From: Streptomyces sp. SLBN-31
GTDB taxonomy: Bacteria; Actinomycetota; Actinomycetes; Streptomycetales; Streptomycetaceae
Direction: 5' to 3'
Length of the DNA: 64,000 nt
Assembly (NCBI RefSeq): GCF_006715395.1
Contig: NZ_VFNC01000001.1
Coordinates: 4,030,001-4,094,000 of the forward strand
Made by a program: the position numbers and the translations under genes. This document shows, piece after piece, positions 22,585 to 53,182 of the stretch (position 1 is its first letter; each line of letters begins with the position of its first letter). A model generated the notes under the pieces. It saw only the letters and a list, made by a program, of their open reading frames with translations. It was not told where the DNA came from and searched no databases.

Positions 22585-24542
22585 CGGATTCCGCAGGGCG
22601 CCAGGAGTCCCGCCGCGCCGCACACGCCAGGAAGCGCATCAGCCGCCGTCCCAGCCGGCTCGGCCTGCCCGCCGGGAGCACGGCCGTACCGGACCGCGTC
22701 CGGGATGAGGAGGCCGGGTTCCCCGCCCTGCTGCAGCGCGTCTGGCAGCGTGCGGCCAAGGCACCGGACCTGCCGTCGGCTCTTGAGGTGCTGCTCACCC
22801 TCGACGGACACGTGCCCGCCGACATCCAGCTGCGGGCCCTGAACTCGGCCGAGCAGGCCGCCCTGAGCGCACTGTGCGGCCTGACCTGGCGTGACGCCGA
22901 CGCCGACGCGTCCACCGCCACCGCCGCGGAGCCCGGCGTCGGCTCCAATGGCTCCGATGAGCGGCCCGTCTTCCGCGGTGAGATCGCCCTGACCACCAGC
23001 GGCCGCATCGCCGTACGCACCCCCGGCGGCCGCCCCCTGGATGCCCGCGACCTGGTCGGCGGGGTGCGCCGGGTGCCCTGGAGCCGCGCCGTCCTGGACG
23101 TCTACCGGCGCGAGCTGCACGACGCCCGCCGGCGGCGTGCCGCCGGCGCCGCCGACTGCCGTGCCTGGCTGGCCGAGCAGGGGCAGGAGGGCCGTGATGC
23201 GCTGGTCGTCCAGGCCCGGCAGGCGGCCCTGCGCACCGCCCCGTTCGTCCTGTACCAGCAGGACACGCAGTACACCAACTTCCGCGGCCGCAACACCCTG
23301 ACCGGCAAGACGCTGTGGCCGGGCCATCCCGACTGCGCGTTGAGCGCCCTGCACGGCCTGCCGCTGGAGTTGTGGTCGGACCAGGACACCCAGCTGGTCG
23401 TCTGCCTCACGCTGCTCATCCGCTCGGCCGGCTTCGGCCGCATCGAGGAGGCCAACGGCACCCAGCTGAGCGTCGAGCACGTCGCCCACACCCTGGAACG
23501 GGTGCGCCGCACCTACAACGCCGTCCCCGTGCCCGGCGCCGAGCCGGTGCCCGCCCCCGCCTCCCACACCGTCGCCGACCTCGACCACCTCGCCGCCGCG
23601 CTGCGCGAACGCCGCCGGCAGGTGGCCGGCAGCGCCCAGCTGTACCGCGAGATCCACGGGGCGCTGATGCACAAGGTGGAGCGGGTGGCCGCCGCCCCCG
23701 GCGACGTCGCCCGCGCCCGGCAGGGGGCCGTCGCCGAGCACCTGCGCGCCCGGCTGCCGCTGACCGGCGACACGCTCGCCGACCTCGGCCGCGATCTCGA
23801 CGCCGCGCCCGGCTGGCTGGCCCGCCCGCACGGCGCCTTCGCCACCGGCCTGGAGTCTTTGGTCTACGAGGCCGTGGCCGCGACCGCCACCGCCTTCGAC
23901 GCCGACTTCGCGATGAGCCGCGGCATGCGCTCGCTGCCCGCCCTGATCCGCGCGCTGCGCGGCGAGAGCTGGGCGGAGATCTGCGACTGGGACATCACCC
24001 ACTTCTTCTGCTGTGTGGTGCCGCGCCCCGAGGCCGCCGCCCACTTCGGCCACTCCACGGCCGCGCTCGCCGACGCCGCCTGGGCGATGTCCTCGCGCAT
24101 GCAGTACAACTCCTGGCACTTCGTCGCCGGCAACCTGCCGCCGGCGCCCGAGGTGGACGCCCGCGACCACTTCGTGCCGCCCGTCATCCCCGACCTGGCG
24201 TTCTTCTCCGACCAGCACCACCACGGGCACGTCAACAACAACGTGCGCTTCTCCATCCGCTCCCCGCAGGGCGTCGACGTCGACGGCCGCCGCTTCGAGG
24301 GCTTCATGGACCTGCGGCTGCTGCGCTGCGCCGGGCAGCCGTTCGGCGAGCAGGACCTGCTCGCCGCGCACCAGGTGTCCGCCTTCATCGCCCGCGCCAC
24401 CTCACTCGCCGCCCAACTGGCCGCGGCCGGGACCGGGCTGGAGGTCACCGCCTTCGACTCCGGCTGGCACTGGGAGTCCATCACGGGCCGTGCACCGGCC
24501 GGTGCACACTCCCTGACCGGTCAGGTCCGCCGAGCGTCATGA
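22581..24542 (+). CDS. unknown 653-aa protein of the N-N (hydrazine) cassette
   Basis: I do not recognise a characterised family. The N-terminal 25 residues are Arg-rich (RRAAHARKRISRRPSR). A middle segment has YQQDTQYTNFRGRNTL. The C-terminal third carries DITHFFCCVVPRPEAAAHFGHS (Asp471, His474, Cys477, Cys478) and the striking FFSDQHHHGHVNNNVRFSIRS (His546-548, His550), which look like metal-binding residues. It overlaps the ferredoxin upstream (ATGA) and the amidase downstream (ATGA), so the three are one translational unit. By position it matches the uncharacterised large protein shared by kinamycin and fosfazinomycin clusters and is a candidate N-N bond-forming or redox enzyme; that role is inference. 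Confidence 0.7.
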   Translation: MTDSAGRQESRRAAHARKRISRRPSRLGLPAGSTAVPDRVRDEEAGFPALLQRVWQRAAKAPDLPSALEVLLTLDGHVPADIQLRALNSAEQAALSALCGLTWRDADADASTATAAEPGVGSNGSDERPVFRGEIALTTSGRIAVRTPGGRPLDARDLVGGVRRVPWSRAVLDVYRRELHDARRRRAAGAADCRAWLAEQGQEGRDALVVQARQAALRTAPFVLYQQDTQYTNFRGRNTLTGKTLWPGHPDCALSALHGLPLELWSDQDTQLVVCLTLLIRSAGFGRIEEANGTQLSVEHVAHTLERVRRTYNAVPVPGAEPVPAPASHTVADLDHLAAALRERRRQVAGSAQLYREIHGALMHKVERVAAAPGDVARARQGAVAEHLRARLPLTGDTLADLGRDLDAAPGWLARPHGAFATGLESLVYEAVAATATAFDADFAMSRGMRSLPALIRALRGESWAEICDWDITHFFCCVVPRPEAAAHFGHSTAALADAAWAMSSRMQYNSWHFVAGNLPPAPEVDARDHFVPPVIPDLAFFSDQHHHGHVNNNVRFSIRSPQGVDVDGRRFEGFMDLRLLRCAGQPFGEQDLLAAHQVSAFIARATSLAAQLAAAGTGLEVTAFDSGWHWESITGRAPAGAHSLTGQVRRAS

Positions 24543-25942
24543 GCGGGGGAGCGTTGACCGCGCACGGTGTCCGCCACACCACAGACCTCCTCAGGCGGGG
24601 CGAGCTGAGCGCTCTGGAGCACACCACCGCTGTCCTGGCCGCCGCCCGCGAACACGACACCCTGGACGCCTACGTCGCCATCGCGGGCGAGGAGGCGCTG
24701 CGCGCGGCCGCGCGCGCCGATGCGCTCATCCGCGAACTGGGTGCCGACACCTGGCGCACCTGGCCGCTGCTGGGCGTCACCGTCTCCGTCAAGGACCTGC
24801 TGCAGACCCGCGACCTGCCCACCGTGCGCGGCTCGCTGCTGCCCAACGACCGGCCCCGCCAGGACGCCCCGGCCGTGGCCCGGCTGCGCGCCGCCGGCGC
24901 CGTCATCGTCGGCAAGACCGCCACGTCCGAATACGGCTGGAGCGCCTGCACCCTCTCCCGCGTCGCCCCGCCCGTGCGCAACCCCCACGACCCGCGCCTG
25001 AGCGCGGGCGGCTCCAGCGGCGGCGCCGCCGCCGCGGTGGCCGCCGGCCTGTGCGACGCCGCCCTGGGCACCGACGGCGCCGGATCCATCCGCATCCCGG
25101 CCGCGTTCTGCGGCGTCGTCGGCTACAAACCCACCCTGGGCCGCATCCCGTACGTGCCCAACAGCGCCGACCGGCTCGCCCACCAGGGCCCCCTGGCCCG
25201 CACCGTCGCCGAGGCCGCCCTGCTCGCCCGCGTCATGGCCGGCCCCCACCCCGCCGACCCCGACTCCGCGCTCGGCTCCCTCGACGCCCCCCGCGCCGCC
25301 CGCACCCTGCGCATCGGCTGGATCGACTACGACATCACCACCGACGAGGTCCGCCGCGTCGCCGCACAGGCCCGCCTGGCCCTCATCGCCCAGGGCCACC
25401 GGGTGAGGGACGTCGAGGTGCGCTGCGAGCGCCTCTACCCCGCGCTCGTCGACCTCCTGGCCGCCTCCGAGGCGGCCGGCGCCCGCCCCGAGGACGACCA
25501 GTGGGCCGATCCCGGCCGCCTGGAGGTGATCCGCTACGGGCGCACCCTTAGCGGCGCCGACGTCATCCGCGCCGAAGAGGTCCGCCAGAACCTGCGCGCC
25601 ACCCTGCGCACCGTCATGGACCGCTACGACGTCCTGGCCATGGCCACCGTGCCCGTCGAGCCGTTCGCCTACGACGCCGTCGGCCCGCCCTGGGCGGCCG
25701 ACCCGGGTGATCTGCGGTGGCTGGCCTGGGCGCCCGCCTCCTACCCCTTCAACATGACCGGCCAGCCCGCCCTGTCCCTGCCCGCCGGCCGCACGTCGGC
25801 CGGCCTGCCGGTGGGCGTGCAACTGGTCGGCCCCGTCGGCGGCGACGACCTGGTCCTGGCCCTGGCCGGGCGCCTGGAGGCCGACCTCGGCACACCGCTG
25901 CCGCCCCCCGCAAGGGCCCTGCAGCCCGCCGCCGCCCACTAA
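24539..25942 (+). CDS. amidase-signature hydrolase of the N-N cassette
   Basis: The protein is 467 residues. The Ser-cisSer-Lys triad is visible: the lysine in VSVKDLLQTRDL, the cis-serine in LSAGGSSGGAAAA and the nucleophile in GTDGAGSIRIPAAFCG. Length is normal for the amidase-signature family. In the fosfazinomycin/kinamycin route an amidase-type hydrolase removes the acetyl group after acetylhydrazine has been loaded on glutamate, and gene order supports that job here. It overlaps the preceding gene by 4 bp and is followed at 28 bp by the glutamine synthetase-like gene. Confidence 0.85.
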   Translation: MSGGALTAHGVRHTTDLLRRGELSALEHTTAVLAAAREHDTLDAYVAIAGEEALRAAARADALIRELGADTWRTWPLLGVTVSVKDLLQTRDLPTVRGSLLPNDRPRQDAPAVARLRAAGAVIVGKTATSEYGWSACTLSRVAPPVRNPHDPRLSAGGSSGGAAAAVAAGLCDAALGTDGAGSIRIPAAFCGVVGYKPTLGRIPYVPNSADRLAHQGPLARTVAEAALLARVMAGPHPADPDSALGSLDAPRAARTLRIGWIDYDITTDEVRRVAAQARLALIAQGHRVRDVEVRCERLYPALVDLLAASEAAGARPEDDQWADPGRLEVIRYGRTLSGADVIRAEEVRQNLRATLRTVMDRYDVLAMATVPVEPFAYDAVGPPWAADPGDLRWLAWAPASYPFNMTGQPALSLPAGRTSAGLPVGVQLVGPVGGDDLVLALAGRLEADLGTPLPPPARALQPAAAH

Positions 25943-25970
25943 CCCCCGCCCCGCGAAAGGACGTTATTCC

Positions 25971-27500
25971 ATGTACGTCAGGTCATGGTCCTCGCCCGCC
26001 GCCCAGGGCAGCGTCGGGCGGCCCTCCTTCGTGGCCGACCACGCCCTGTGGGACGACGCCCGCACCGCCGCCGCCGAACGGATCGAAGCCGCCCTCGCCG
26101 ACATCGACCTCGTCCGCCTCGTCTTCGGCGACCCGCACGGACTGGCCCGCTCCAAGACCCTCACCGCCGAGGCGTTCCGCTCCGTGCTGCGCAACGGCAT
26201 GAACTTCAGCCCCGGCCCGTTCGTCTTCGACACCGGACACGCCGTCGCCGTCGACTTCCTGGGCGAGCACGGCATCGGCGTCGACGAGATCGCCGGCGCC
26301 GGCAACTTCATCCTCGTGCCCGACCCGCTCACCTTCCAGGTGCTGCCCGGCGGTGACGCCCGCACCGCCTGGGTGATCGGCGACGAGTACCTGCGCGACG
26401 GCACCCCCCACCCGCTGTCCTCCCGGGCCGTGCTGCGCCGCGTCGCCGACCGCTACGCCCAGCACGCCCTGGCCCCCGTCGTGGGCCTGGAAGTGGAGTG
26501 GTACCTCACCCGCCGCCTGGACAACGAACCCGGCAACACCGGCAACGGCTTCGGCCTCCAAGGCCAGGCCCCGCGCGTGACGGCGGTGAACGCCGGCTAC
26601 CAGTTCAACCTCGACGCCCACTACGACACCCTCGCCCCCCTGACCGACCCGCTCGCCCTGCACCTGCTCGCCCTGGGCCTGCCCCTGCGCTCGATGGAAC
26701 ACGAATCCGGGCCCGGCCAGGTGGAGACGACGTTCAGCCCGATGTCCGCCCTGGATGCCGCCGACGCCATGCTGCTGTTCCGCACCACCGTCAAGAACTG
26801 GTGCGCCCGCCGCGGCCACCACGCCTCCTTCATGTCCAAGCCGCTCCTGGACGCCGCCGACCCCAGCGGCTGGCACCTCAACCAGTCGGTCACCGACCTC
26901 ACCACGAACACCAACCTGTTCGCCGCCGACGCCCTCTGCGGCGGACCGTCCCCGCAGGGCAAGGCCTACGCCGAGGGACTGCTGTCCTTCGCCCGCGAGC
27001 TGTGCCTTGTGTCGGTGCCCACCGTCAACGGCTACCGGCGCCTGGCCGCCGAGCACACCCTGGCCCCCACCCGGCTCGGCGTCAGCCAGGAAGACCGCAG
27101 CGCCATGCTCCGCCTCGTCGGCCACGGCGCCGGCGCGCACATCGAAAACCGCATCGGCGAACCGTGCGCCAACCCCTACCTCACCATCGCCGCCCAGCTC
27201 TACGCCGGCCTCGAGGGCCTGACCGCCCAGCCCGCACCCGCCCCCGGCGGACAGCCGGCCACCGGCGGCGCCCCGGCGGCCGACGGCGCGCCGGCGGTGG
27301 TGCCGCAGGACCTGCGCGAGGCCCTCGACGCCTTCCGTACCGGACGGGCCGCCCGGCTGCTGGGCGAGCCCCTGGCCGCCTGCCTGACCAAACTCAAGGA
27401 AAGCGAACTGCGCCGCTACCAGGCCTGGTGCCTGCAGGCCGCCCCCGCCCCCGGGCAGGTCACCGAGTGGGAACAGCGTGAGTACTTCGGCGCCTACTGA
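25971..27500 (+). CDS. glutamine synthetase-like ligase of the N-N cassette
   Basis: This 509-residue protein carries glutamine synthetase landmarks: VVGLEVEWYLTRRLDN (metal ligands), MEHESGPGQVETTFSP, ASFMSKPLLDAADPSGWHLNQS (ATP/metal region) and NRIGEPCANPYL. The N-terminus is short and unlike housekeeping GlnA, and there is no adenylylation Tyr loop that I can place. In fosfazinomycin and kinamycin biosynthesis such an enzyme joins (acetyl)hydrazine to the gamma-carboxyl of glutamate using ATP. An Ala/Pro/Gly-rich insertion at about residues 420-445 is a linker. A general glutamine synthetase-like ligase is the fallback call. Confidence 0.85.
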   Translation: MYVRSWSSPAAQGSVGRPSFVADHALWDDARTAAAERIEAALADIDLVRLVFGDPHGLARSKTLTAEAFRSVLRNGMNFSPGPFVFDTGHAVAVDFLGEHGIGVDEIAGAGNFILVPDPLTFQVLPGGDARTAWVIGDEYLRDGTPHPLSSRAVLRRVADRYAQHALAPVVGLEVEWYLTRRLDNEPGNTGNGFGLQGQAPRVTAVNAGYQFNLDAHYDTLAPLTDPLALHLLALGLPLRSMEHESGPGQVETTFSPMSALDAADAMLLFRTTVKNWCARRGHHASFMSKPLLDAADPSGWHLNQSVTDLTTNTNLFAADALCGGPSPQGKAYAEGLLSFARELCLVSVPTVNGYRRLAAEHTLAPTRLGVSQEDRSAMLRLVGHGAGAHIENRIGEPCANPYLTIAAQLYAGLEGLTAQPAPAPGGQPATGGAPAADGAPAVVPQDLREALDAFRTGRAARLLGEPLAACLTKLKESELRRYQAWCLQAAPAPGQVTEWEQREYFGAY

Positions 27501-27548
27501 CCCCCCGGCCCCCGCCCCCTGCCGCTCCACTCCCGACGGAGGCCGCGC

Positions 27549-28835
27549 ATGATCGCCCGCTACACGCTGCCCGAGATGGCCGCCCTGTTCACCGACCACG
27601 CCCGCTACACCACCTGGGTGCGGGTGGAGATCCTCGCCTCCCAGGCACAGGCCGCCCTCGGCCACGTCCCCCACGAGGCGGTGAAGGACATGCGCCGCGC
27701 CCCCGTCCCCGACCCCGAGCGGGTCGCCGCCATCGAACGGGAACGCGACCACGAGGTGCTCTCCTTCCTCGCCGCCTACTGCGAGAACATCCCCGACACC
27801 TCAGCCCGCTGGGTCCATCTGGGCATGACCAGCTACGACCTCGTCGACACCGCGCTGGGCCACACCCTGGCCCGCGCCACCGACCTCCTCACCGCAGCCG
27901 CCCGCCGGCTGCGCCGGGTGCTGACCGAGCGGGCCCTGGAACACTGGGACACCGTGATGGTGGGCCGCACCCACGGCATGCACGCCGAACCCACCACCTT
28001 CGGCCACAAACTCGCCGGCCACGCCTTCGCCGTCGACCGCTCACTGCACCGCCTGGCCGCCGCCCGCCAGGCCGTCGCCGTCGGCACCATCTCCGGCTCG
28101 GTCGGCACCTACGCACTGATCGACCCCCGCGTCGAGGAACACGTCTGCGCCGCCCTCGGCCTGACCGTCGAACCCGCCCCCAGCCAGGTCGTCGCCCGCG
28201 ACCGCCACGCCCAGCTGCTGCAGGCCGTGGCCACCCTGGGCGCCTGCGTGGAACACCTCGCCCTGGAACTGCGGCTGCTGCAGCGCACCGAGGTCCGCGA
28301 GGTCGAAGAAGCCCGCACCAGCGCCTACCAGGGCTCCAGCGCCATGCCCCACAAACGCAACCCCACCACCAGCGAACGGCTGTGCGGCCTGGGCCGCCTG
28401 CTGCGCGGCTACGCCGACACCGCCCTGGAAAACGTCGCCCTGTGGCACGAACGCGACCTCGCCCACCAAAGCGTGGAACGGGTGATCCTGCCCGACAGCC
28501 TGGGCGTCGGCCACTTCCAGGCCACCAAGGCCGCCGACCTGGTGGCCACCCTCACCGTCGACACCGACCGCATGCGCGCCCACATCGACCACACCGACGG
28601 CCTCCTCTACAGCTCCTCGGTCCTGGCCGAACTCCTCAGTGACGGGGTGGAACGCGAACACGCCTACCGCAGCGTGCAGGCCGCCGCCAACCACACCCTG
28701 GCCACCGGCGAGCACTTCGGCGCCGCCCTGGCCAAACAGGGCATCGACCTGGCCGGCCTGGGCCCCGAGCGCTTCCTCACCCACCACGACGTGATCCGCA
28801 CCCGATTGGAGAAGCTGCATGAGCTGGAAGATTGA
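27549..28835 (+). CDS. adenylosuccinate lyase-like protein of the N-N cassette
   Basis: This 428-residue protein has MIARYTLPEMAALFTDHARYTTW, HTLARATDLL, VGRTHGMHAEPTTFGHKLAG and the family signature GSSAMPHKRNP with the catalytic serine loop. It is close to PurB in overall pattern. Fumarate-releasing lyases of this superfamily are shared by the kinamycin and fosfazinomycin clusters; CreD-like relatives release nitrite from nitrosuccinate. The present protein looks more PurB-like, so elimination of fumarate from an N-succinyl hydrazine-type intermediate is a plausible but unproved role. The GGAGG ribosome site is good. It overlaps the GNAT gene by 17 bp. Confidence 0.85.
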   Translation: MIARYTLPEMAALFTDHARYTTWVRVEILASQAQAALGHVPHEAVKDMRRAPVPDPERVAAIERERDHEVLSFLAAYCENIPDTSARWVHLGMTSYDLVDTALGHTLARATDLLTAAARRLRRVLTERALEHWDTVMVGRTHGMHAEPTTFGHKLAGHAFAVDRSLHRLAAARQAVAVGTISGSVGTYALIDPRVEEHVCAALGLTVEPAPSQVVARDRHAQLLQAVATLGACVEHLALELRLLQRTEVREVEEARTSAYQGSSAMPHKRNPTTSERLCGLGRLLRGYADTALENVALWHERDLAHQSVERVILPDSLGVGHFQATKAADLVATLTVDTDRMRAHIDHTDGLLYSSSVLAELLSDGVEREHAYRSVQAAANHTLATGEHFGAALAKQGIDLAGLGPERFLTHHDVIRTRLEKLHELED

Positions 28836-29223
28836 GCGTGTCGACGGGGCCGCACTCGACCTCGACGAGGTCCTGGGCGTCTACCGCGCCTCCGGCCTGG
28901 GCGAGCGGCGCCCGATCGCCGAGCGGGAGCGGTTCGCGGCCATGCTCGCCCACGCCAACCTCGTCCTCACCGCCCGCGACGACGACGGCACCCTCCTGGG
29001 CATCGTCCGCGCCGTCTCCGACTTCTCCTACGTCACCTACCTCTCCGACATCGCCGTCACCCGCGACCGCCAGCGCGCCGGCATCGGCCGCGCCCTGATC
29101 GACGCCACCGCCGCCGAGGCCCCCCAGGCCAAGCTCGTACTGCTGTCCGCGCCCGCGGCCGTCGACTACTACCCGCACATCGGCTTCACCCGCCACGACT
29201 CCGCCTGGGTCCTTAACCCCTGA
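28819..29223 (+). CDS. GNAT N-acetyltransferase of the N-N cassette
   Basis: The protein is 134 residues. TLLGIVRAVSDFSYVTYLSDIAVTRDRQRAGIGRALIDA contains the acetyl-CoA binding motif RQRAGIGRAL, followed by LVLLSAPAAVDYYPHIGF. It overlaps the lyase gene by 17 bp and completes the cassette. In the related pathways a GNAT enzyme converts hydrazine to acetylhydrazine, which is then moved to glutamate; that is the inferred role. Confidence 0.88.
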   Translation: MSWKIERVDGAALDLDEVLGVYRASGLGERRPIAERERFAAMLAHANLVLTARDDDGTLLGIVRAVSDFSYVTYLSDIAVTRDRQRAGIGRALIDATAAEAPQAKLVLLSAPAAVDYYPHIGFTRHDSAWVLNP

Positions 29224-45981: not shown

Positions 45982-46034
45982 AACGCACTCCTTTCCCAAT
46001 CGGGGATAGGTGAATTCTCTTCCCCGCCCGGCTT

Positions 46035-46063
46035 GTTCAACCGGAGCGCCTCGGCAGTTGAAC
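46035..46063. promoter_or_regulatory. StrR-type operator (site B)
   Basis: GTTCAACCG, 11 bases, CAGTTGAAC; the dyad extends to an 11-bp match when the flanking GCTT/AAGC is included. It lies 54 bp before the glycosyltransferase start and 114 bp before the 29-residue peptide gene, so it could act on either. Confidence 0.7.
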
Positions 46064-46104
46064 AAGCAGAACCGCTCGACCAACACCCTTGAAAAACCAT
46101 GAAC

Positions 46105-46110: not shown

Positions 46111-46176
46111 CAGCGGAGCACCCGACGCGATCGTCAATGCACTCGATTGCCGATACAGCTTCGGGAGGTGAATCAG

Positions 46177-46266
46177 ATGAAGACGCTTCGCCAGTGGAAC
46201 GCTCTGCGCTCGCAGCGTAAGGGCGGTGTCCGTCCGGCCGGTAAGTACTTCAAGTGGGCTGCCTGA
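46177..46266 (+). CDS. 29-residue basic peptide, possible RiPP precursor or leader peptide
   Basis: The ribosome site GGGAGGTG stands seven bases before an ATG that opens a clean 29-codon frame ending in TGA. The peptide begins MKTLRQWNALRSQRKG and ends AGKYFKWAA, with eight Lys/Arg and no acidic residue or cysteine. Codon use is less GC-biased (CTT, GCT, CGT, GGT) than in its neighbours. A very strong hairpin with a T-run follows 15 bp later, then an operon of two FGE-fold proteins, a PhyH dioxygenase and an exporter. This is the usual layout of a highly expressed precursor peptide ahead of its modifying enzymes; a regulatory leader peptide is the main alternative. I recognise no family. Confidence 0.65.
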   Translation: MKTLRQWNALRSQRKGGVRPAGKYFKWAA

Positions 46267-46281
46267 TCAGGGCGCTCTCGT

Positions 46282-46324
46282 GGCCTGTGGAGGGTGACAT
46301 CACCCTCCACAGGCCAGGGTTTTT
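46282..46324 (+). terminator. very strong terminator or attenuator after the 29-residue peptide
   Basis: A 16-bp perfect stem (GGCCTGTGGAGGGTGA and complement) with a 2-base loop is followed by AGGGTTTTT. It would stop most transcripts from the peptide gene and let a fraction continue into the FGE/PhyH operon. Confidence 0.85.
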
Positions 46325-46365
46325 GGCCCAGGGATATCTGAGTCGTGGCAATCGAGGTGGGATCA

Positions 46366-47775
46366 GTGCACAGGTGGAGTTACGAACGTTTTGCCGTCGA
46401 GCAGAAGAATGTGAACGGGCTGGTCGAACGTTTTCTGGCCCCGGAGGTCTGGCAGACATCACGCGAACCGCTGACCGGTGAAGAACGCGCCGAACTGCGC
46501 GAGGCGATCGCGGCGCTTCGCCACCCCATGGTCATCGAAGAACTCTGTGCGATGGCGGCGACCCACCCCCGTGCGGATGTCCGCCTGACGGTTCTCGAGG
46601 GCGTCGAGCCGTTTATGGCCACGCTGCCCGCGGCGCGGGAATTCCTGGTCTGGCTGCTCGGCGACGACGAGGACTTCGTCGTGTTCACCGCCGCGAAGAT
46701 CGCCGGCCGCCACCGCATCGGCGAGGCTTATGAGGAGCTGCTGCACATCACCGGACCGGCCGAGGCCGGCCTGCTGCGCAGCACCAAGCCGGTCGGCATC
46801 GGCGCCGCCGTCGTGGCCAAGGCGATGGACGCCATCCTCGGCGCCGAGGACCGCGCGGCCCGCCTTGAAATCGAGCGGGAGCACACCCGCACCGGCCAGC
46901 TGCCCGAGGAGTGCGCACTGGGCGAACACTGGGACTACGACCCGCCCAACCTGCCCCGCCCCGTCCCCGAGGGCATGGTCCTCATCCCGGCCGGCGACTT
47001 CGTCGTCGGCATCGGCATCGACGACGTCGTCCATCCGCTGTACGACGTGGACGACGCCGTGCCCCGCCAGCGCCGCCACCTGCCCGACTTCCTCATCGAC
47101 CGCCACCCGGTGACCAACGCCGAGTACGACGCCTGGGCGAACGGCCCGCTGGCCGCCGAGCACGCCCTGTGCCACCCCGACGAGCCCGAGGACAAGGACC
47201 ACCGCCGCGGCATCACCGGCGACGCCCGGTTCGGCCCCGACCACCCCGCCACCGGCGTCGACTGGTACGACGCCTACGCCTACCTCGCGCACATCGGCAA
47301 ACGGCTGCCCACCGAACTGGAATGGGAGAAGGCCGCCCGCGGCGAGAACGGCTCCCTGTACCCGTGGGGCGATGACTTCGACCCCGACGCCCTGCGCTGG
47401 TTCGGCGCCTCCTTCGGCGAGGCGAAGAACCTGGAGCACTGGCGCGACACCCTGAGCACCTTCGACGAGGAAACCCCGGCCGTCACCACCGTCCCGGTCG
47501 GCTCCCACCCCAAGAACGTCAGCAGCTACGGCGTGGCGGACCTGGTCGGCAACTGCTGGGAGTGGACGGACACCAACTTCTTCACCCGCGACCGCATGAA
47601 GCCGATGATCTCCGGCCGGCCCCGCACCGAATGGGCCACCGCCGAGGAGACCTCAGTGGTCATCCGGGGCGGCGCGTGGACCTCCATGCGCGAGCAGGTC
47701 ACGGCATACTTCCGCGGCAAGGACCTCTTCACCGACCGGCACAACGAGATCGGCTTCCGAGGAGTGATCCGGTGA
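46366..47775 (+). CDS. FGE-sulfatase-fold protein with helical N-terminus, copy 1
   Basis: The protein is about 469 residues. I start it at GTG 46366, five bases after GAGGTGG; an earlier GTG is at 46345. The N-terminal 190 residues are helical with HEAT-like repeats (HPMVIEELCAMAATHPRADVRLTVLEGVEPF). The C-terminal formylglycine-generating-enzyme/SUMF1 fold has EGMVLIPAGDFVVG, DFLIDRHPVTNAEYDAW, HPATGVDWYDAYAYLAHIGKRLPTELEWEKAARG, DLVGNCWEWT and VVIRGGAW...EIGFRGVIR. The two catalytic cysteines of true FGE are missing from the C-terminal loop, so it is not a standard sulfatase activator. It is coupled to the PhyH gene by GTGA. Confidence 0.85.
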   Translation: MHRWSYERFAVEQKNVNGLVERFLAPEVWQTSREPLTGEERAELREAIAALRHPMVIEELCAMAATHPRADVRLTVLEGVEPFMATLPAAREFLVWLLGDDEDFVVFTAAKIAGRHRIGEAYEELLHITGPAEAGLLRSTKPVGIGAAVVAKAMDAILGAEDRAARLEIEREHTRTGQLPEECALGEHWDYDPPNLPRPVPEGMVLIPAGDFVVGIGIDDVVHPLYDVDDAVPRQRRHLPDFLIDRHPVTNAEYDAWANGPLAAEHALCHPDEPEDKDHRRGITGDARFGPDHPATGVDWYDAYAYLAHIGKRLPTELEWEKAARGENGSLYPWGDDFDPDALRWFGASFGEAKNLEHWRDTLSTFDEETPAVTTVPVGSHPKNVSSYGVADLVGNCWEWTDTNFFTRDRMKPMISGRPRTEWATAEETSVVIRGGAWTSMREQVTAYFRGKDLFTDRHNEIGFRGVIR

Positions 47776-48551
47776 GCTCCCCGCAGCGCATTCCCCGCTT
47801 TGGCTACGACGGCACGGTGACGGCCGAACAACGCGCCTTCTACGAGCAGTACGGCTTCGTCATCTACCGCGGCATCTTCGACGCCCACGACGTGGACCTC
47901 ATCAAACGCGACGCCCAGCGCCTGGAACGCGACACCCTCGCCGGCAACGTGCCGGCCGAACACCGCGACCAGGTCATCAAACCCTCCTACGACGAGAACG
48001 GCCGGGCGACCCTGCACCGGCTGCCCTACTTCACCCTGCACTGCGCCGACACCCGCGACCTGATCGAGCGACGCAACCTGGACGCGCTCGGCCCCGGCCT
48101 GCTGGGCGGGCCGACCTGGCGGTTCGAGGACGCCGTCGACGGCGCCGTATGGCAGATGAAACGCGGCAAGCGCAGCTCCTACAGTGCCCTGGACTGGCAC
48201 CTGGACTTCCCGCACGACCTGCCGCTGACCCCCCTGGTGAACGTGGGCATCTACCTGGACGACGCCACCCTGCGCAACGGCTGCCTGGTCCTGGTGCCCG
48301 GCTCCCACCGCTATCCGCCACGCCGCCTTGAACCGGTGGGACTTCCGCTGGAGGCCGAGGCGGGCGACGTCATCTGCCACACCTACAACATCCTCCACCA
48401 CTCCGGCCCGGTACTGGACGACACCAGCCGGGCAACGCTGTACGTGTACTACTCCGCGGGGGAAAAGCCCTCGGCGGGCACCGCGTACAGCCACCGGGCG
48501 GGCGAGGACTTCGCCAAGATGATCACCGGAGCGGAGGCCGGCACACGTTGA
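47772..48551 (+). CDS. PhyH-type Fe(II)/2-oxoglutarate dioxygenase
   Basis: This 259-residue protein starts at a GTG overlapping the FGE stop (GTGA). FYEQYGFVIYRGIF is a typical PhyH N-terminus. The iron ligands are His143 and Asp145 in DWHLD and a distal His in NILHHSG (209/210), with Arg220 in DDTSRATLYV for 2-oxoglutarate. Such enzymes hydroxylate or desaturate small molecules or peptide side chains. Its stop codon lies exactly at the end of the IS200/IS605-type element, so the last residues could have been changed by the insertion. Candidate modifier of the 29-residue peptide. Confidence 0.88.
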   Translation: MSSPQRIPRFGYDGTVTAEQRAFYEQYGFVIYRGIFDAHDVDLIKRDAQRLERDTLAGNVPAEHRDQVIKPSYDENGRATLHRLPYFTLHCADTRDLIERRNLDALGPGLLGGPTWRFEDAVDGAVWQMKRGKRSSYSALDWHLDFPHDLPLTPLVNVGIYLDDATLRNGCLVLVPGSHRYPPRRLEPVGLPLEAEAGDVICHTYNILHHSGPVLDDTSRATLYVYYSAGEKPSAGTAYSHRAGEDFAKMITGAEAGTR

Positions 48552-49924
48552 CTTCCTCCCCCTCCTGAAGGAGGGGGAGTCCTACGGCTCGCGCCGTGGG
48601 GTTTTCTGCTTCATCGCCGACTGCCCGCCCGGAGTACTCCGTTGAGGTCTCACATCAGCTCCACAGACCGACGCCGTCAGCCCGACGGCCAGAATGTTCT
48701 TCGCCGCGTTCACGTCCCGGTCGTGGGTCGTGCCGCAGGCGCACGTCCACGCGCGGACGTTGAGCGGCATCGTGTCCTGCAGGCTGCCGCAGGCGGAGCA
48801 CAGCTTGGAGGAGGGGAACCATTGGTCGATCGCGATCACTGCGCGGCCGTACCACTGGGCCTTGTATTCCAGCATGCTCCGGAAATCGGACCAGGCCGCG
48901 TCGCTGATGGCGCGGGCCAGGCTGGCGTTCTTCATCATGTTTTGAACGGCGAGGTCCTCGATCACGATCGTTTGGTTTTCACGAACGAGACGAGTGGTGA
49001 TTTTGTGCAGGTGGTCGCGCCTGCGGTCGGTGATGCGGGCGTAGACCTTGGCCACCTTCCGGCGTGCCTTGGCCCGGTTGGCTCCCTCCCCCTTGGCCTT
49101 GCGGGCGAGCTGCCGCTGGGCCGTGGCCAGGCGGGCTCCATCGCGGTGCTCGTGCCGGGGGTTGGAGACCTTCTCCCCGGTGGAGAGGGTCAGCAGGTGA
49201 TCGAGGCCGACGTCGACACCGACGGCCGCGTGGGTGGGGGGAAGTGGCCGGACGGAGGGGTCCTCACACAGCAGGGACACATACCAGCGTCCGGCCGCGT
49301 CCTTGGACACCGTCACGGTAGACGGCGACGCACCCTCGGGCAGGGGACGGGACCACACGATCTCCAGCGGCTCCGCCATCTTCGCCAGGGTCAGCCTGCC
49401 GGCCCTGAACCGGAATGCGCTGGTGGTGTACTCCGCCGACTTCCGCGACTTCTTCCGCGACTTGAACCGCGGGTGCCTCGCCCGCCTGCCGAAGAAGTTC
49501 GTGAACGCCGTCTGAAGGTGCCGCAGAGCCTGCTGGAGCGGCACGGAGGAAACCTCGTTGAGGTAGGCGAGTTCCTCGCTCTTCTTCCAGGCCGTCAGCA
49601 TCGCCGACGTCTGGTGGTAGCTCACCCGCTCCTGCCTCGCCCACGCCTGCGTGCGCGCCGCAAGGGCCAGGTTGTAGACCTTCCGCACACATCCGAACGT
49701 GCGCGACAGCTCGGCTGCCTGCGCATCGGTCGGATAGAAGCGGTACTTGAACGCCCGCTTCACGAAAGTGGCCACGGCTCACAAACTATTACGCCGGCTT
49801 GTGGCCATCTGCCGGTTCGTGGAAATGGACGCCGCTCCGCCCTGGCGGCGAACCGGCTTTCCCTGCCCTGCTCCGCAGTTGCTTCGTTTCCTCCCCGGCC
49901 TGAAGGCCGGGGTATCCACGAAGG
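48552..49924 (-). mobile_element. IS200/IS605-group element carrying only tnpB (IS1341-like)
   Basis: The tnpB gene is flanked by imperfect palindromes. Near the right end is CTCCCCCTCCT-ga-AGGAGGGGGAG (48556-48579) plus a second small hairpin. Near the left end is CCCCGGCCTGAAGGCCGGGG inside 49856-49924. Both ends share TTCCTCCCC...CCTGAAGG...GGGG. No tnpA is present, so it would need help to move. It sits between the PhyH and second FGE genes of what looks like one operon. Exact borders are estimated. Confidence 0.8.
48582..49775 (-). CDS. tnpB: TnpB (RuvC-domain RNA-guided nuclease of IS200/IS605 elements)
   Basis: This 397-residue protein starts VATFVKRAFKYRFYPTDAQAAEL. The RuvC residues are Asp188 (GVDVGLDHLL), Glu273 (VIEDLAVQNM) and Asp354 (HDRDVNAAKN). 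The zinc finger is Cys326/Cys329 (CSAC) and Cys345/Cys347 (CAC). All catalytic positions are present, so the enzyme appears intact. In this family a guide RNA comes from the region overlapping the 3' end of tnpB and the element's right end, here about 48.55-48.7 kb on the minus strand. Confidence 0.93.
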   Translation of the reverse strand: MATFVKRAFKYRFYPTDAQAAELSRTFGCVRKVYNLALAARTQAWARQERVSYHQTSAMLTAWKKSEELAYLNEVSSVPLQQALRHLQTAFTNFFGRRARHPRFKSRKKSRKSAEYTTSAFRFRAGRLTLAKMAEPLEIVWSRPLPEGASPSTVTVSKDAAGRWYVSLLCEDPSVRPLPPTHAAVGVDVGLDHLLTLSTGEKVSNPRHEHRDGARLATAQRQLARKAKGEGANRAKARRKVAKVYARITDRRRDHLHKITTRLVRENQTIVIEDLAVQNMMKNASLARAISDAAWSDFRSMLEYKAQWYGRAVIAIDQWFPSSKLCSACGSLQDTMPLNVRAWTCACGTTHDRDVNAAKNILAVGLTASVCGADVRPQRSTPGGQSAMKQKTPRREP

Positions 49925-49933
49925 AAGGCCCCG

Positions 49934-51304
49934 ATGACCACCACCACCGCGGACGTTCCGCCCCAAGTCCTGCACCTCGCCGCCTGGGCCGAGGGGCCGG
50001 CCGCCGAACGCGACGCCCTGATCGCCGGCTACCTGAGCACCCTGGAGCAGCTGGCCGACCCGCAGCTGCTCGCTGAATGCCTGGCGGTCGGCCTGCTGCA
50101 CGAGATGCCCGAGATCCGCCGCCAGGCCCTCGCGGCCGCCGTACGGCTCGCCCCGGACCTGGCGGCGGAGGCCGTCGGCTGGGCGCTGGCCGACCCGGAC
50201 GAGACCGTGCGCGGCCCGGCCCTGGCGGCCCTGGCCGCAACGCCGGCCCTGCGCGCGGCGGGCGGCCCGTCCGCGCTGCACGCCCTGCTGGCCGTGCTGG
50301 GCCGCTCACCCGACCAGATCGCCGGCGGCGCCGGGAACTACGTGACGGTGGCGGACGCCCAGGCGCTGGCCTCGGCACAGACCCTGCTCGCCGACACGGC
50401 ACTGGCAGACACGGTTCTTGAGGAGCTTCCCGTCCCGTTGTCCGCGGACCGGCTGCCCAGCCGGCTCTCCCTGGAGGGGATGCGGCACATCCCGGCCGGA
50501 CGGTTGCGCCGCGGCACACCTCCCGGCGAGGAACGCTCCTGGGGTGATCCGGGTGAGCCCGCGGTGGCCGAGGTCACCGTCGAGGGCTTCTACCTGGACA
50601 CCTGCCCGGTCACCAACGACGACTACGACGCGTTCGTCGCCGACGTCGGTGAGCAGGGCCACCTGTGGTGCCATCCGGACGAGCCCAGGAACACCGACCA
50701 CACCCGCTCCACCGCCGACGACCCCCGCTGCGCCGGCGGCCATCCGGCGACCGGGGTCAGCTGGTACGACGCGGTCGCCTACGCCGCCTGGTGCGGCAAG
50801 CGGCTGCCCACCGAGGACGAGTGGGAGCGGGCCGCCCGCGGCGACGACCACCGCCGCCACCCGTGGGGAGCCGACTTCCGGCCCGAGCGGGTGCGGGGCC
50901 TGCACGCGCTCCTGGGCTGGGACGGCGATGTGGGCCTGGACCGCGCCGCGTGGCTGCGCCGGCTCGCGGATCTGTCTGTCGCCCACCTGCCCGCACTGAC
51001 CGGCCCGGTGAACCTGCCGGGTGGCGAATCCCCCTTCGGGGTGAGGGATTTGTGCGGCAACGTGTGGGAGTGGACCTCCACCCGCTTCCTGGACGGCCTC
51101 CCCCTACAGCCGCGCTTCGCCGCCATGGACCCGGGCGATCTGTGGGGGGAGTGGTCGGCCGAGGTCAGCGTCCGCGGCGGGGCGTGGAGTTCACCGCCCG
51201 CGCTGCTCACCACGCTCAGCCGGGCGGGCAAGACGCTGGTGACCAGGAGTCCGGAGATCGGGTTCCGCTGCGCGGTGAGCGAATCGGAGGGGCCCGCTCG
51301 ATGA
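49934..51304 (+). CDS. FGE-sulfatase-fold protein with HEAT-like N-terminus, copy 2
   Basis: The protein is 456 residues. The N-terminal half has HEAT-like helical repeats (LLHEMPEIRRQALAAAVRLAPDLAAEAVGWALADPDETVRGPALAAL). The C-terminal fold has EGMRHIPAGRLRRG, GFYLDTCPVTNDDYDAFV, HPATGVSWYDAVAYAAWCGKRLPTEDEWERAARG, DLCGNVWEWT and VSVRGGAW. Like copy 1 it lacks the paired catalytic cysteines at the C-terminal loop (LTTLSRAGKTLVTRSPEIGFRC). Its ribosome site (GAAGGAAGG) lies in the end sequence of the neighbouring IS element. It overlaps the MFS gene by ATGA. Confidence 0.85.
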   Translation: MTTTTADVPPQVLHLAAWAEGPAAERDALIAGYLSTLEQLADPQLLAECLAVGLLHEMPEIRRQALAAAVRLAPDLAAEAVGWALADPDETVRGPALAALAATPALRAAGGPSALHALLAVLGRSPDQIAGGAGNYVTVADAQALASAQTLLADTALADTVLEELPVPLSADRLPSRLSLEGMRHIPAGRLRRGTPPGEERSWGDPGEPAVAEVTVEGFYLDTCPVTNDDYDAFVADVGEQGHLWCHPDEPRNTDHTRSTADDPRCAGGHPATGVSWYDAVAYAAWCGKRLPTEDEWERAARGDDHRRHPWGADFRPERVRGLHALLGWDGDVGLDRAAWLRRLADLSVAHLPALTGPVNLPGGESPFGVRDLCGNVWEWTSTRFLDGLPLQPRFAAMDPGDLWGEWSAEVSVRGGAWSSPPALLTTLSRAGKTLVTRSPEIGFRCAVSESEGPAR

Positions 51305-52581
51305 CCCCGGCACGGCGCATTCAGCGGGTGCTGCCCGAGGGCTACACCCGCTGCCTGGCCAACCCCGACTTCCGCCGGCTGCAGCCCGGATTCCTCGTCT
51401 CCTTCCTCGGCGACGGCATGAGCTTCATCGGGGTGGCCTGGCTGGCCGTCGAACTGGCCGCCCCCACCCACCGGTCCCTGGTGGTGGGGCTCGCCGTCGC
51501 CGCCTACAGCCTGCCCGCCGCGCTCGGCTCCCTGACCCTGGGACGCTGGCTCAGCGGACGCAACGCCCGCAGCCTGATCCTGGTCAACGCCCTCCTGCGC
51601 GGCGCCCTGTTCGCCCTGATCCCCGCCTTGTACTGGACCGGACTGCTGACCGCCGCGACCTACATCGCCCTGCTCGCCCTGTCCTCGATCCTGCACGCCT
51701 GGGGGATCGCCGGCCGGCAGACCTTCGTCGCCGAGACCCTCCCGGCCGAAGACCGGCTGGCCGGCCACGCCCTGGTGGGCAGCCAGGAGCAGCTGTCGTT
51801 CATCACCGGCCCCCCGCTGGCCGGTCTGGTCTCGGCCGCCCTCGGGCCGGCCGCGGTGCTCGCCGCCGACGCGCTCAGCTACGCCTACCTCGCCCTGGTC
51901 ACGGCCCGGGTACGCGGCGAGGGCACCCTCGAGCGGCGGCCGCCGGTGCCGCTGCGGCGCAGCGGCCAGACCCTCGCCCGCCACCCCGAACTGCTGGGCC
52001 TGCTGGGCCTGTCGTTCGTCTTCTACCTGCTGTACGGGCCCATCGAGGTGGCCGTCCCCCTGGTCGTGGCCGAGCGGATGGGCTCCGATCCCACCGTGCT
52101 CGGCTGGATCTGGAGCGCGTTCGGTGTCGGCGCGGTGATCGGGACCTGGATCACCGGAACGCTGCGGCGGCTGCCGCTGTGGCCGACCGTGCTGGCCATC
52201 GTGGCCGGCTGGGGGCTGGCGATCCTGCCCTTCGCCCACTTCGGCACCCTCGCCGCGGGCATCGCCGGCTTCGGCCTGGGCGGCCTGATCTACGCGCCCT
52301 ACGGGCCGGTGAGCATCACCCTGCTGCAACAAAAGGCGCCCCTGGAGGAGTTGGTCAGCCTCAGCGCGTTCCGCAGCGCGATCCTGGTGATCGCCACCCC
52401 GCTGGGCGCGGTCCTCGCCGGCCCCCTGATCGGCGCGTTCGGCGCGACGGGCACCATCCGCCTGTCCGGGCAGACCACCATCGCCCTCGCCGCCCTGGGC
52501 GCCGTCCTGATCCTGCTGCTGCGCCGGCGCCGGCACCGCCCGCAGCGGCACGAACCGCTGGTGAGCACCGAACAGCGGTAG
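51301..52581 (+). CDS. MFS exporter
   Basis: This 426-residue protein has about 12 hydrophobic helices, for example FLVSFLGDGMSFIGVAWLAVEL, VVGLAVAAYSLPAALGSL, WSAFGVGAVIGTWITGTL and TIALAALGAVLILLLRR. It carries an MFS-type loop (TLGRWLSGRNARSLILVN) after helix 2. The pattern is like the enterobactin-exporter (EntS)/DHA3 group. Its start overlaps the second FGE gene, so it belongs to the peptide/FGE/PhyH unit and probably exports that unit's product. Confidence 0.88.
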   Translation: MTPARRIQRVLPEGYTRCLANPDFRRLQPGFLVSFLGDGMSFIGVAWLAVELAAPTHRSLVVGLAVAAYSLPAALGSLTLGRWLSGRNARSLILVNALLRGALFALIPALYWTGLLTAATYIALLALSSILHAWGIAGRQTFVAETLPAEDRLAGHALVGSQEQLSFITGPPLAGLVSAALGPAAVLAADALSYAYLALVTARVRGEGTLERRPPVPLRRSGQTLARHPELLGLLGLSFVFYLLYGPIEVAVPLVVAERMGSDPTVLGWIWSAFGVGAVIGTWITGTLRRLPLWPTVLAIVAGWGLAILPFAHFGTLAAGIAGFGLGGLIYAPYGPVSITLLQQKAPLEELVSLSAFRSAILVIATPLGAVLAGPLIGAFGATGTIRLSGQTTIALAALGAVLILLLRRRRHRPQRHEPLVSTEQR

Positions 52582-52684: not shown

Positions 52685-53182
52685 ATGAAACTCGGACAGG
52701 AAGAGATGCGCAGCCGGTTCGAGCGGGAGCGGGCCGTGCGGCTGGCCACGGTCGACGACCGCGGGCGCGCCCATGTCGTGCCGGTCATCTTCGTGGTCGA
52801 CGGCGGCATCTTCTACTCACCCACCGACAAGCCCAAGAGCGGCAATCCGCGGCCCAAGCGGCTGCGCAACCTCGACCGCGACCCGCGGGTGACGGTCCTG
52901 GCCGACTGCTACGACGAGAACTGGCTGGGGGCGTGGTGGGTGCGGCTGCGGGGCACCGCCCGGGTCATCGGCGACGGCCCGGAGCGCACCCGCGCGCTGG
53001 GCCTGCTGGACGGCAAGTACGAGCAGTTCGACGGCGCCCGCTACCTCAAGGACGGCGGACCGGTGGTGGCGGTCGACATCAAGGACTGGCTCGGCTGGGC
53101 CTACAGCGAGCAGTCCGCGGCGCCCACCGGTCGGCGCCGCACCTGGCGCGAGCGGTCGCGGCTGCGGTCCAGTCGTGCTTGA
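52685..53182 (+). CDS. PPOX-class F420/FMN-binding oxidoreductase
   Basis: The protein is 165 residues. RLATVDDRGRAHVVPVIFVVDGGIFYSPTDKPK, RLRNLDRDPRVTVLADCY and WWVRLRGTARVI match the split-barrel family TIGR03668-like F420-dependent PPOX proteins of actinomycetes. These reduce small conjugated molecules using F420H2 or FMN. The ribosome site AAGGAGCAACGG is good. It lies just before a flavin hydroxylase and may be part of the tailoring set. Confidence 0.85.
   Translation: MKLGQEEMRSRFERERAVRLATVDDRGRAHVVPVIFVVDGGIFYSPTDKPKSGNPRPKRLRNLDRDPRVTVLADCYDENWLGAWWVRLRGTARVIGDGPERTRALGLLDGKYEQFDGARYLKDGGPVVAVDIKDWLGWAYSEQSAAPTGRRRTWRERSRLRSSRA

Follow-up and report, generated by a model that had tools for sequence, protein, structure and literature searches.

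A short Lys-Trp peptide gene and its HEAT-FGE partner in Streptomyces sp. SLBN-31: comparative evidence for a RiPP-like unit

The peptide unit in the window

The window analysed here is a 64,000-nt stretch of Streptomyces sp. SLBN-31 (NZ_VFNC01000001.1, positions 4,030,001-4,094,000, forward strand), and the system in question is a unit in which a short peptide gene precedes genes for two proteins of the formylglycine-generating enzyme (FGE) fold, a dioxygenase and a transporter. The peptide gene lies on the plus strand at 46177..46266 (stop included), behind the Shine-Dalgarno (SD) sequence GGGAGGT at 46163..46169, and encodes the 29-residue peptide MKTLRQWNALRSQRKGGVRPAGKYFKWAA, which contains no Cys and is read here as a leader and a Lys-Trp (K-W) core. 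It is followed on the same strand by a perfect 17-bp inverted repeat (46281-46297/46300-46316) and a T5 run at 46320-46324, and folding of 46120-46345 presents a z-score of -3.57 against shuffles. This hairpin (46281..46324) is a probable partial terminator, or the 3' end of the peptide mRNA.

The conserved partner gene, HEAT-FGE1, occupies 46366..47775 (plus strand) and carries the signature KPVG ... RGKDLxTDRHxE. A GTG start at 46366 is preferred over 46345, given that relatives L068-L070 (L-numbers are labels of loci compared with the window) have ATG at the matching position and a 91% relative is annotated from the same codon. Also on the plus strand are a PhyH-type Fe/2-oxoglutarate (Fe/2OG) oxygenase (47772..48551), HEAT-FGE2, a degenerate paralogue in which KPVG, D460 and H466 are lost (49934..51304), and a major facilitator superfamily (MFS) transporter, the putative exporter (51301..52581). 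PF03781 matches both FGE proteins, PF05721 the PhyH protein and an MFS model the transporter; both FGE proteins have a HEAT-like N-terminal part, with PF13646 matches under the curated cut-off. The set FGE1-PhyH-FGE2-MFS, termed type A, was found in ten actinobacterial loci (the window and L063-L071) from Streptomyces, Actinomadura and Actinoallomurus, and all nine relatives present a close homologue of the window peptide and a purine-rich SD.

The first-pass annotation of the window had described the 29-codon frame with its good ribosome site, the hairpin with its T-run and 4-bp stop/start overlaps between the genes; all three were recovered, the overlaps at the FGE1/PhyH and FGE2/MFS junctions. 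Its gene set is likewise present, yet it missed an IS200/IS605-type element with TnpB on the minus strand (48552..49925, ends approximate; open reading frame 48582-49775), which interrupts the operon. The PhyH stop and the FGE2 match are 1382 nt apart in the window and -4 to 35 nt apart in the nine type A relatives measured; in four of these nine (L063, L064, L065, L070) the two genes share a 4-bp overlap, which indicates that the TnpB element split a chain of overlapping genes. Judging from this comparison, the IS605-type element is one that entered at the PhyH/FGE2 junction, and FGE2-MFS may have been uncoupled from the promoter by the insertion. The operon region of L065 holds a TnpB with 85% identity to the window's, located between MFS and PPOX.

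Occurrence and conservation of the peptide and its partner

A search of 295 genus genomes with the peptide at E-values up to 1 matched 155 of them. Four matches, the window's included, fell below 0.001 (identities of 100, 100, 100 and 93%); the next stood at 0.0075, and the rest were taken as chance. The same four genomes carry FGE1 at 86% identity or above. A HEAT-FGE at 36-40% identity was found in 11 further genus genomes, and in all of them (L051 and L055 included) a short frame ending in KW or KWxx lies upstream of it. Across the ten type A peptide copies, window included, pN/pS is 0.31 and dN/dS is 0.26, i.e., silent sites are about three times as variable per site as replacement sites, which indicates that conservation of the peptide acts at the protein level.

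The wider survey was a contig scan of 84,980 species genomes, with an alignment of 15 HEAT-FGE proteins as the query. The best 80 of 180 relatives were taken, so the resulting family count is a lower bound, and 79 loci were obtained, among which many of the earlier genus genomes recur. These were sorted into 60 family loci and 19 generic FGE loci. A motif rule (KPVG and RG[KR]..DRH) was passed by 47 of the 60, and 12 were added by hand (L070, L072, L073, L078, L081, L083, L085, L086, L091, L092, L093 and L096), since variants and broken frames escaped the rule. L118 was kept as a control, its KPVG being a chance occurrence, and L119 was reassigned from the controls to the family after the tree. 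In L087, L094, L105 and L111 the FGE gene was not picked up by gene calling, and the FGE1 of L072 appears to be split across two frames, so that only its C-terminal piece was compared.

Peptides were called under a fixed rule requiring an SD, 12-75 codons, KW at most two residues from the end, and a start between 600 nt upstream and 60 nt inside the open FGE frame. This rule scored 49 of the 60 family loci versus 0 of the 19 generic FGE genes. Applied to other genes of the same loci it scored 5 of 421, all five being displaced family peptides, and on two-base-block-shuffled segments it scored 2 of 1200. Counting the displaced peptides, that of L093, and those of L083 and L098, which the fixed rule misses, a KW peptide (Lys-Trp plus 0-2 residues) is present in 57 of the 60 family loci. 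The displaced ones were chosen by a looser rule from lists covering each whole locus, and the remaining [KR]W frames of L072, L081, L084, L093, L094, L099 and L119 in these lists were set aside as chance. The second KW frame of L097 and both KW frames of L131 were also left out.

The peptide is present in 10 of 13 groups at 70% protein identity and in 36 of 39 at 90%. Its hosts include Streptomyces, Actinomadura, Actinoallomurus, Nocardia, Rhodococcus, Lentzea, Kineosporia, Thermomonospora, Anoxybacillus, Siminovitchia and Stappia, and the pairing with HEAT-FGE spans actinobacteria, bacilli and alphaproteobacteria. The family is rare, with matches at E <1e-80 in 3 of 396 phylum genomes, one of them the window's and all from the same genus. 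In two plasmid records HEAT-FGE carries the annotation 'SUMF1/EgtB/PvdO family nonheme iron enzyme'; neither of the two lists the peptide gene, PLSDB's tables being incomplete. One case is pSCL4 of Streptomyces clavuligerus, where the KW peptide MTAEDFLGSREAGEAATKW (L145 11637-11696, no listed annotation) precedes a cluster of HEAT-FGE, aldolase II, LLM, aminotransferase, PPOX and P450 genes.

The family comprises 43 distinct peptides of 18-49 residues. KW is the exact C-terminus in 33 of them and is followed by one or two residues in the other 10, which include all type A peptides. As the family searches themselves looked for KW, the constancy of K and W is circular, and the non-circular evidence consists of the control counts, an untargeted dipeptide count and a leader pattern that was not searched for. 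When any C-terminal dipeptide was tallied, KW came first with 7 of 13 groups (next best 3), and restricted to the exact end it led by 4 groups versus 2. The leader pattern (hydrophobic, two residues, [STAQL], Arg) is present in 37 of the 43 distinct peptides, and a stricter form, [FWIL]x(2-3)[ST]R, in 30; the common form of the peptide is M[ST]xxxF[ILM]x[ST]R[DE]...[TS]KW. A chance short frame is rejected by the co-occurrence in the genus, the fixed-rule controls, dN/dS, the dipeptide count and the leader pattern together.

These results also bear on two points of the first-pass annotation. It had named the lack of a homologous short frame beside related FGE/PhyH operons as grounds for abandoning its proposal; such a frame was found in nine actinobacterial loci and, in divergent KW form beside the same four-gene set, in Bacillota L072 and L093, and a KW frame also lies beside most other HEAT-FGEs of the family. 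The peptide end KYFKWAA that it singled out is present in the window, and the part of it constant across the family is K-W.

Partner proteins, gene neighbourhoods and known systems

In 41 aligned HEAT-FGEs (of the window plus 60), K148-P-V-G, H277-P, D306-W, S447, G458, D460, H466 and E468 are invariant. The formylglycine-generating enzyme has two catalytic Cys that bind Cu(I), and its substrate motif contains a Cys. HEAT-FGE resembles FGE/SUMF1 in matching PF03781 and in its Foldseek hits to FGE structures. It differs in its HEAT-like part ahead of the FGE domain and in Ser447, kept in 60/60 family proteins (window and 59 loci), which presumably occupies the position of the first copper-binding Cys. 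Window FGE1 is free of Cys from residue 442 onwards, although many relatives do have some there, and neither the Cys pair in window FGE1 nor a Cys-containing substrate in the window peptide was found.

The AlphaFold model of FGE1 (pLDDT 77.9, pTM 0.70) presents helices at 13-183 and an FGE domain. Profile search and Foldseek agree on CalU17 as first match and EgtB as second. CalU17 of the calicheamicin cluster (PDB 7ml6, 6vqp) is the best solved match to both family profile and model, and is also an FGE-fold protein within an antibiotic cluster; the match is, however, limited to the FGE part, and the alignment does not preserve the RGKDLxTDRH signature. No paper naming CalU17 was among the literature matches listed, and searches on CalU17 and ToxD yielded no function usable for this system. 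The sulfoxide and selenoxide synthases EgtB and SenA share an FGE-like domain, and EgtB is the top NCBIfam match of both window FGEs, but FGE1 scores 79 and 69 bits versus cut-offs of 360 and 420 (79.4 versus 360 for the EgtB equivalog). EgtB and SenA carry an iron-binding DinB-like domain, in place of which HEAT-FGE has HEAT-like helices.

HEAT-FGE2 is best described, from its sequence, as an old degenerate paralogue of FGE1. The twelve FGE2 sequences, including two from Bacillota, group in one clade with a support of 0.98, which suggests one old duplication; FGE1 is not monophyletic in the same tree. All 60 FGE1 compared (those of the window and 59 loci, without L119) have D460 and H466, and none of the 12 FGE2 does. 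In all twelve FGE2, D460 is replaced by K or R, H466 by S or N, and KPVG is lost, while H277, W307, N403-x-W-E and S447 are retained. The exception among single copies is L119, a locus without peptide whose only FGE has also lost the HEAT-FGE signature. We infer that D460 and H466 belong to the active site, and an FGE2 with the same activity as FGE1 is unlikely given their loss in 12 of 12.

This arrangement parallels crocagin biosynthesis (CgnA, CgnB/CgnE, CgnC). In the sections of PMC10070186 on which this comparison draws, second copies of CgnB/CgnE always lose a metal site that single copies keep, and the metal-less copy appears to recruit the peptide to an Fe/2OG oxygenase. On the same partial basis, both systems have a short precursor with a basic leader, a Trp-ending core, one Fe/2OG dioxygenase and two homologous proteins, the second without active-site residues (PMC10070186). 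The window operon has its dioxygenase in PhyH (H143-x-D145...H209), with metal-site residues in 16/16 aligned PhyH proteins, and its decayed second copy in FGE2, single copies being intact except L119 and the active-site role being the one proposed above. The differences, as far as those sections go, are that CgnB/CgnE have an M29-aminopeptidase-like fold and the window pair is HEAT-FGE (PF03781 with a helical N-terminus), and that the crocagin core is (I)-Y-W, whereas the window peptide and its type A relatives have Lys-Trp, with two more residues behind it, and no C-terminal Tyr-Trp (PMC10070186). Peptide, intact and degenerate copy and Fe/2OG oxygenase would thus repeat the crocagin logic with unrelated proteins.

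Neighbouring genes were tallied over the 60 family loci by tblastn at 1e-8 with chosen representatives. MFS was found in 36, PPOX in 25, PhyH in 25 (two kinds, both in L069), ATP-grasp in 22, metallo-beta-lactamase (MBL) in 22, AsnB in 17, LLM in 10, aldolase II in 9 and STAND-NTPase in 6. Relatives of a 350-390-residue protein (L120 11351-12511), two representatives of which have no Pfam match, occur in 24. Peptide and HEAT-FGE are the only elements common to the subtypes in this tally: they are the core pair, and PhyH, the second FGE and MFS are features of a single subtype. The same core is accompanied elsewhere by ATP-grasp, AsnB and PhyH, by aldolase II, LLM and aminotransferase, or by PPOX, MFS and ATP-grasp.

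The six STAND-NTPase loci (L087, L100, L101, L105, L107, L111) may represent a variant of the pair with a signalling or conflict role. PPOX is present in five of the six, some have a caspase-like N-terminus by eye, and a few bases separate the end of the peptide frame from FGE in L100 and L107. A defence system was considered and rejected, as the PADLOC models gave no family match for either window FGE or for the FGEs of L100 and L107. In Actinoallomurus spadix, two different KW units (L069 and L091) adjoin on one contig, with beta-eliminating lyase and aldehyde dehydrogenase genes after the first.

The unit in the window is flanked by a divergent glycosyltransferase on one side and a PPOX/FAD-monooxygenase pair on the other, the PPOX-class oxidoreductase lying at 52685..53182 (plus strand). 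A possible operator, a perfect 11-bp inverted repeat (GCTTGTTCAAC / GTTGAACAAGC) with arms 15 nt apart, is located at 46031..46067 between the glycosyltransferase and peptide genes; L146 has a 10-bp version and L063 an 87% version. The surrounding large cluster includes an acyl carrier protein, polyketide cyclases, several FAD monooxygenases and nucleoside-diphosphate-sugar genes, and two adjacent ketosynthase-family matches lie 25 kb to the right of the window. No polyketide genes were recognised by eye in the 10-13 kb of sequence that L072 and L093 comprise. At 23315-29223 of the window, amidase, glutamine-synthetase-like, adenylosuccinate-lyase and GNAT-like genes stand consecutively, a row which we take to resemble the hydrazine cassette of kinamycin and fosfazinomycin; taken with the aromatic polyketide genes, it points to a product of diazo type. 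The protein at 32898-33314 matches an enediyne antibiotic chromoprotein model (113 bits versus a cut-off of 86); no enediyne genes were noticed within the window, though no search aimed at them was made.

Proposed pathway, rival explanations and significance

Given a gene-encoded precursor that is conserved as a protein beside its partner (57/60; 49 by the fixed rule; 0/19 controls), the unit is read as a pathway for a ribosomally synthesised and post-translationally modified peptide (RiPP), or a RiPP-like product, acting on the Lys-Trp core, with a probability of roughly 0.7. This agrees with the RiPP-like proposal of the first-pass annotation, the modified product itself being a prediction from sequence. 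HEAT-FGE1, with the degenerate HEAT-FGE2, would bind the leader and present or process the Lys-Trp core, FGE2 presenting it as CgnE is thought to. The PhyH Fe/2OG oxygenase would then oxidise Lys-Trp, the likeliest first step being beta-hydroxylation of Lys and/or Trp, towards a small cyclised K-W alkaloid. A protease would remove the leader and the Ala-Ala tail, the MFS protein would export the small product, and local enzymes may finish it. The hairpin would end most transcripts after the precursor, so that precursor would exceed enzyme. The varied tailoring sets around peptide and HEAT-FGE suggest that K-W would be a general starting point.

Several points weigh against this reading. Product, modification and binding are deduced from the genes, and no protease common to the loci was found, though none was systematically sought. 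PhyH is present in only 25 of the 60 loci, and hence it cannot be the common step. The six STAND-NTPase loci have no hairpin and look less biosynthesis-like. The FGE1 model is of low confidence at 460-465, in the signature loop, so no active site can be drawn. Three of the 60 family loci lack a passing peptide: L078 (Bacillus, FGE domain only), L081 (Flavobacteriales, on a 5.5 kb contig) and L119, with its decayed signature. Finally, a looser rule (no SD, up to four residues after KW) finds KW frames at one of the 19 generic FGE loci, L131.

The first-pass annotation had held a regulatory leader peptide, in which translation of the short frame controls read-through of the hairpin into FGE1, to be the main alternative. 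The window itself is laid out as such a leader would be, with the short frame, a strong hairpin and T5 immediately ahead of FGE1. In six family loci from four lineages, however, of which three are closely related, the peptide gene does not immediately precede FGE: it lies downstream of it in L072, is separated from it by an MFS gene in L113 and by an MBL-fold gene in the related L084, L094 and L099, and stands about 1 kb away beside divergent genes in L093. A hairpin within 80 nt of the peptide stop at z <-2 was found in 51 of 58 loci (45 at z <-3; median -4.2), the seven without being the six STAND-NTPase loci and L092, and it stays with the peptide in all six displaced loci, including the five (L113, L072, L084, L094, L099) in which the next gene is not FGE. 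Together with conservation at the protein level (dN/dS 0.26), the displaced loci argue against an attenuation leader, which is rejected for the family and which we regard as extremely improbable.

Two further explanations keep the peptide as a substrate. Pathways of the peptide aminoacyl-tRNA ligase or ammosamide type build on a peptide's C-terminus, and the K-W tail could likewise be a tether on which a small molecule is built and then cut off, the peptide being recycled. KW as the exact end of 33 of the 43 distinct peptides would suit such a scaffold, as would the ATP-grasp (22/60) and AsnB (17/60) neighbours, which could act on the C-terminal carboxylate. The residues behind KW in 10 distinct peptides, all type A ones included, speak against it, and no ATP-grasp, AsnB or LanB-like peptide aminoacyl-tRNA ligase, the hallmark of that type, was found among the window proteins scanned, which do not cover every gene; we consider it unlikely. 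The peptide could instead be the source of a redox cofactor or common building block, with K-W converted into a small cofactor or amine on which neighbouring oxidoreductases draw; this would explain K-W in unrelated clusters and fits the very different neighbourhoods of the core pair, with PPOX in 25/60 and other flavin or 2OG oxidoreductases. PQQ and mycofactocin pathways reduce a short ribosomal peptide to a small molecule from two residues, as proposed for K-W, but they use radical-SAM enzymes, none of which was found among the scanned neighbours, without a systematic search. The presence of MFS in 36/60 loci suggests export, the tally shows no client enzyme shared by the loci, and the family is rare (3/396), which leaves a cofactor quite improbable.

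The RiPP-like reading can be extended, tentatively and at odds that we judge below even. HEAT-FGE could be the defining maturase of a RiPP class in at least three phyla, a Cys-pair-less FGE fold whose pocket (K148-P-V-G, H277, D460, H466, E468) would be re-tooled to activate Lys-Trp. Its active and presenting copies around one Fe/2OG oxygenase would be convergent with crocagin, and the K-W product would be used by chemically unrelated pathways, including the window's aromatic polyketide cluster.

The literature search returned no paper joining SUMF1 and RiPP. A KW peptide with an FGE-fold partner appeared in none of the titles and abstract starts among the matches listed, with most subscription papers lying outside the search. 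A few Buf1|Cytochrom_C|FGE-sulfatase fusion proteins are listed among the bufferins in the part of PMC12452194 drawn upon; there too an FGE domain occurs in a RiPP context, but the fusions belong to copper-related MNIO clusters, whereas the window FGE is a separate partner of a K-W peptide. The peptide/HEAT-FGE pair suggests a class of ribosomally made peptide product that is apparently undescribed. Peptide biosynthesis gains with it a conserved precursor and partner that occur together in soil and industrial actinomycetes, bacilli and marine alphaproteobacteria, S. clavuligerus with its pSCL4 unit being a tractable host, and the pair proposes a specific role for FGE-fold proteins without the Cys pair of FGE. 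If true, a second, independent instance of the crocagin design would hint at a general rule for presenting peptide cores to oxygenases.

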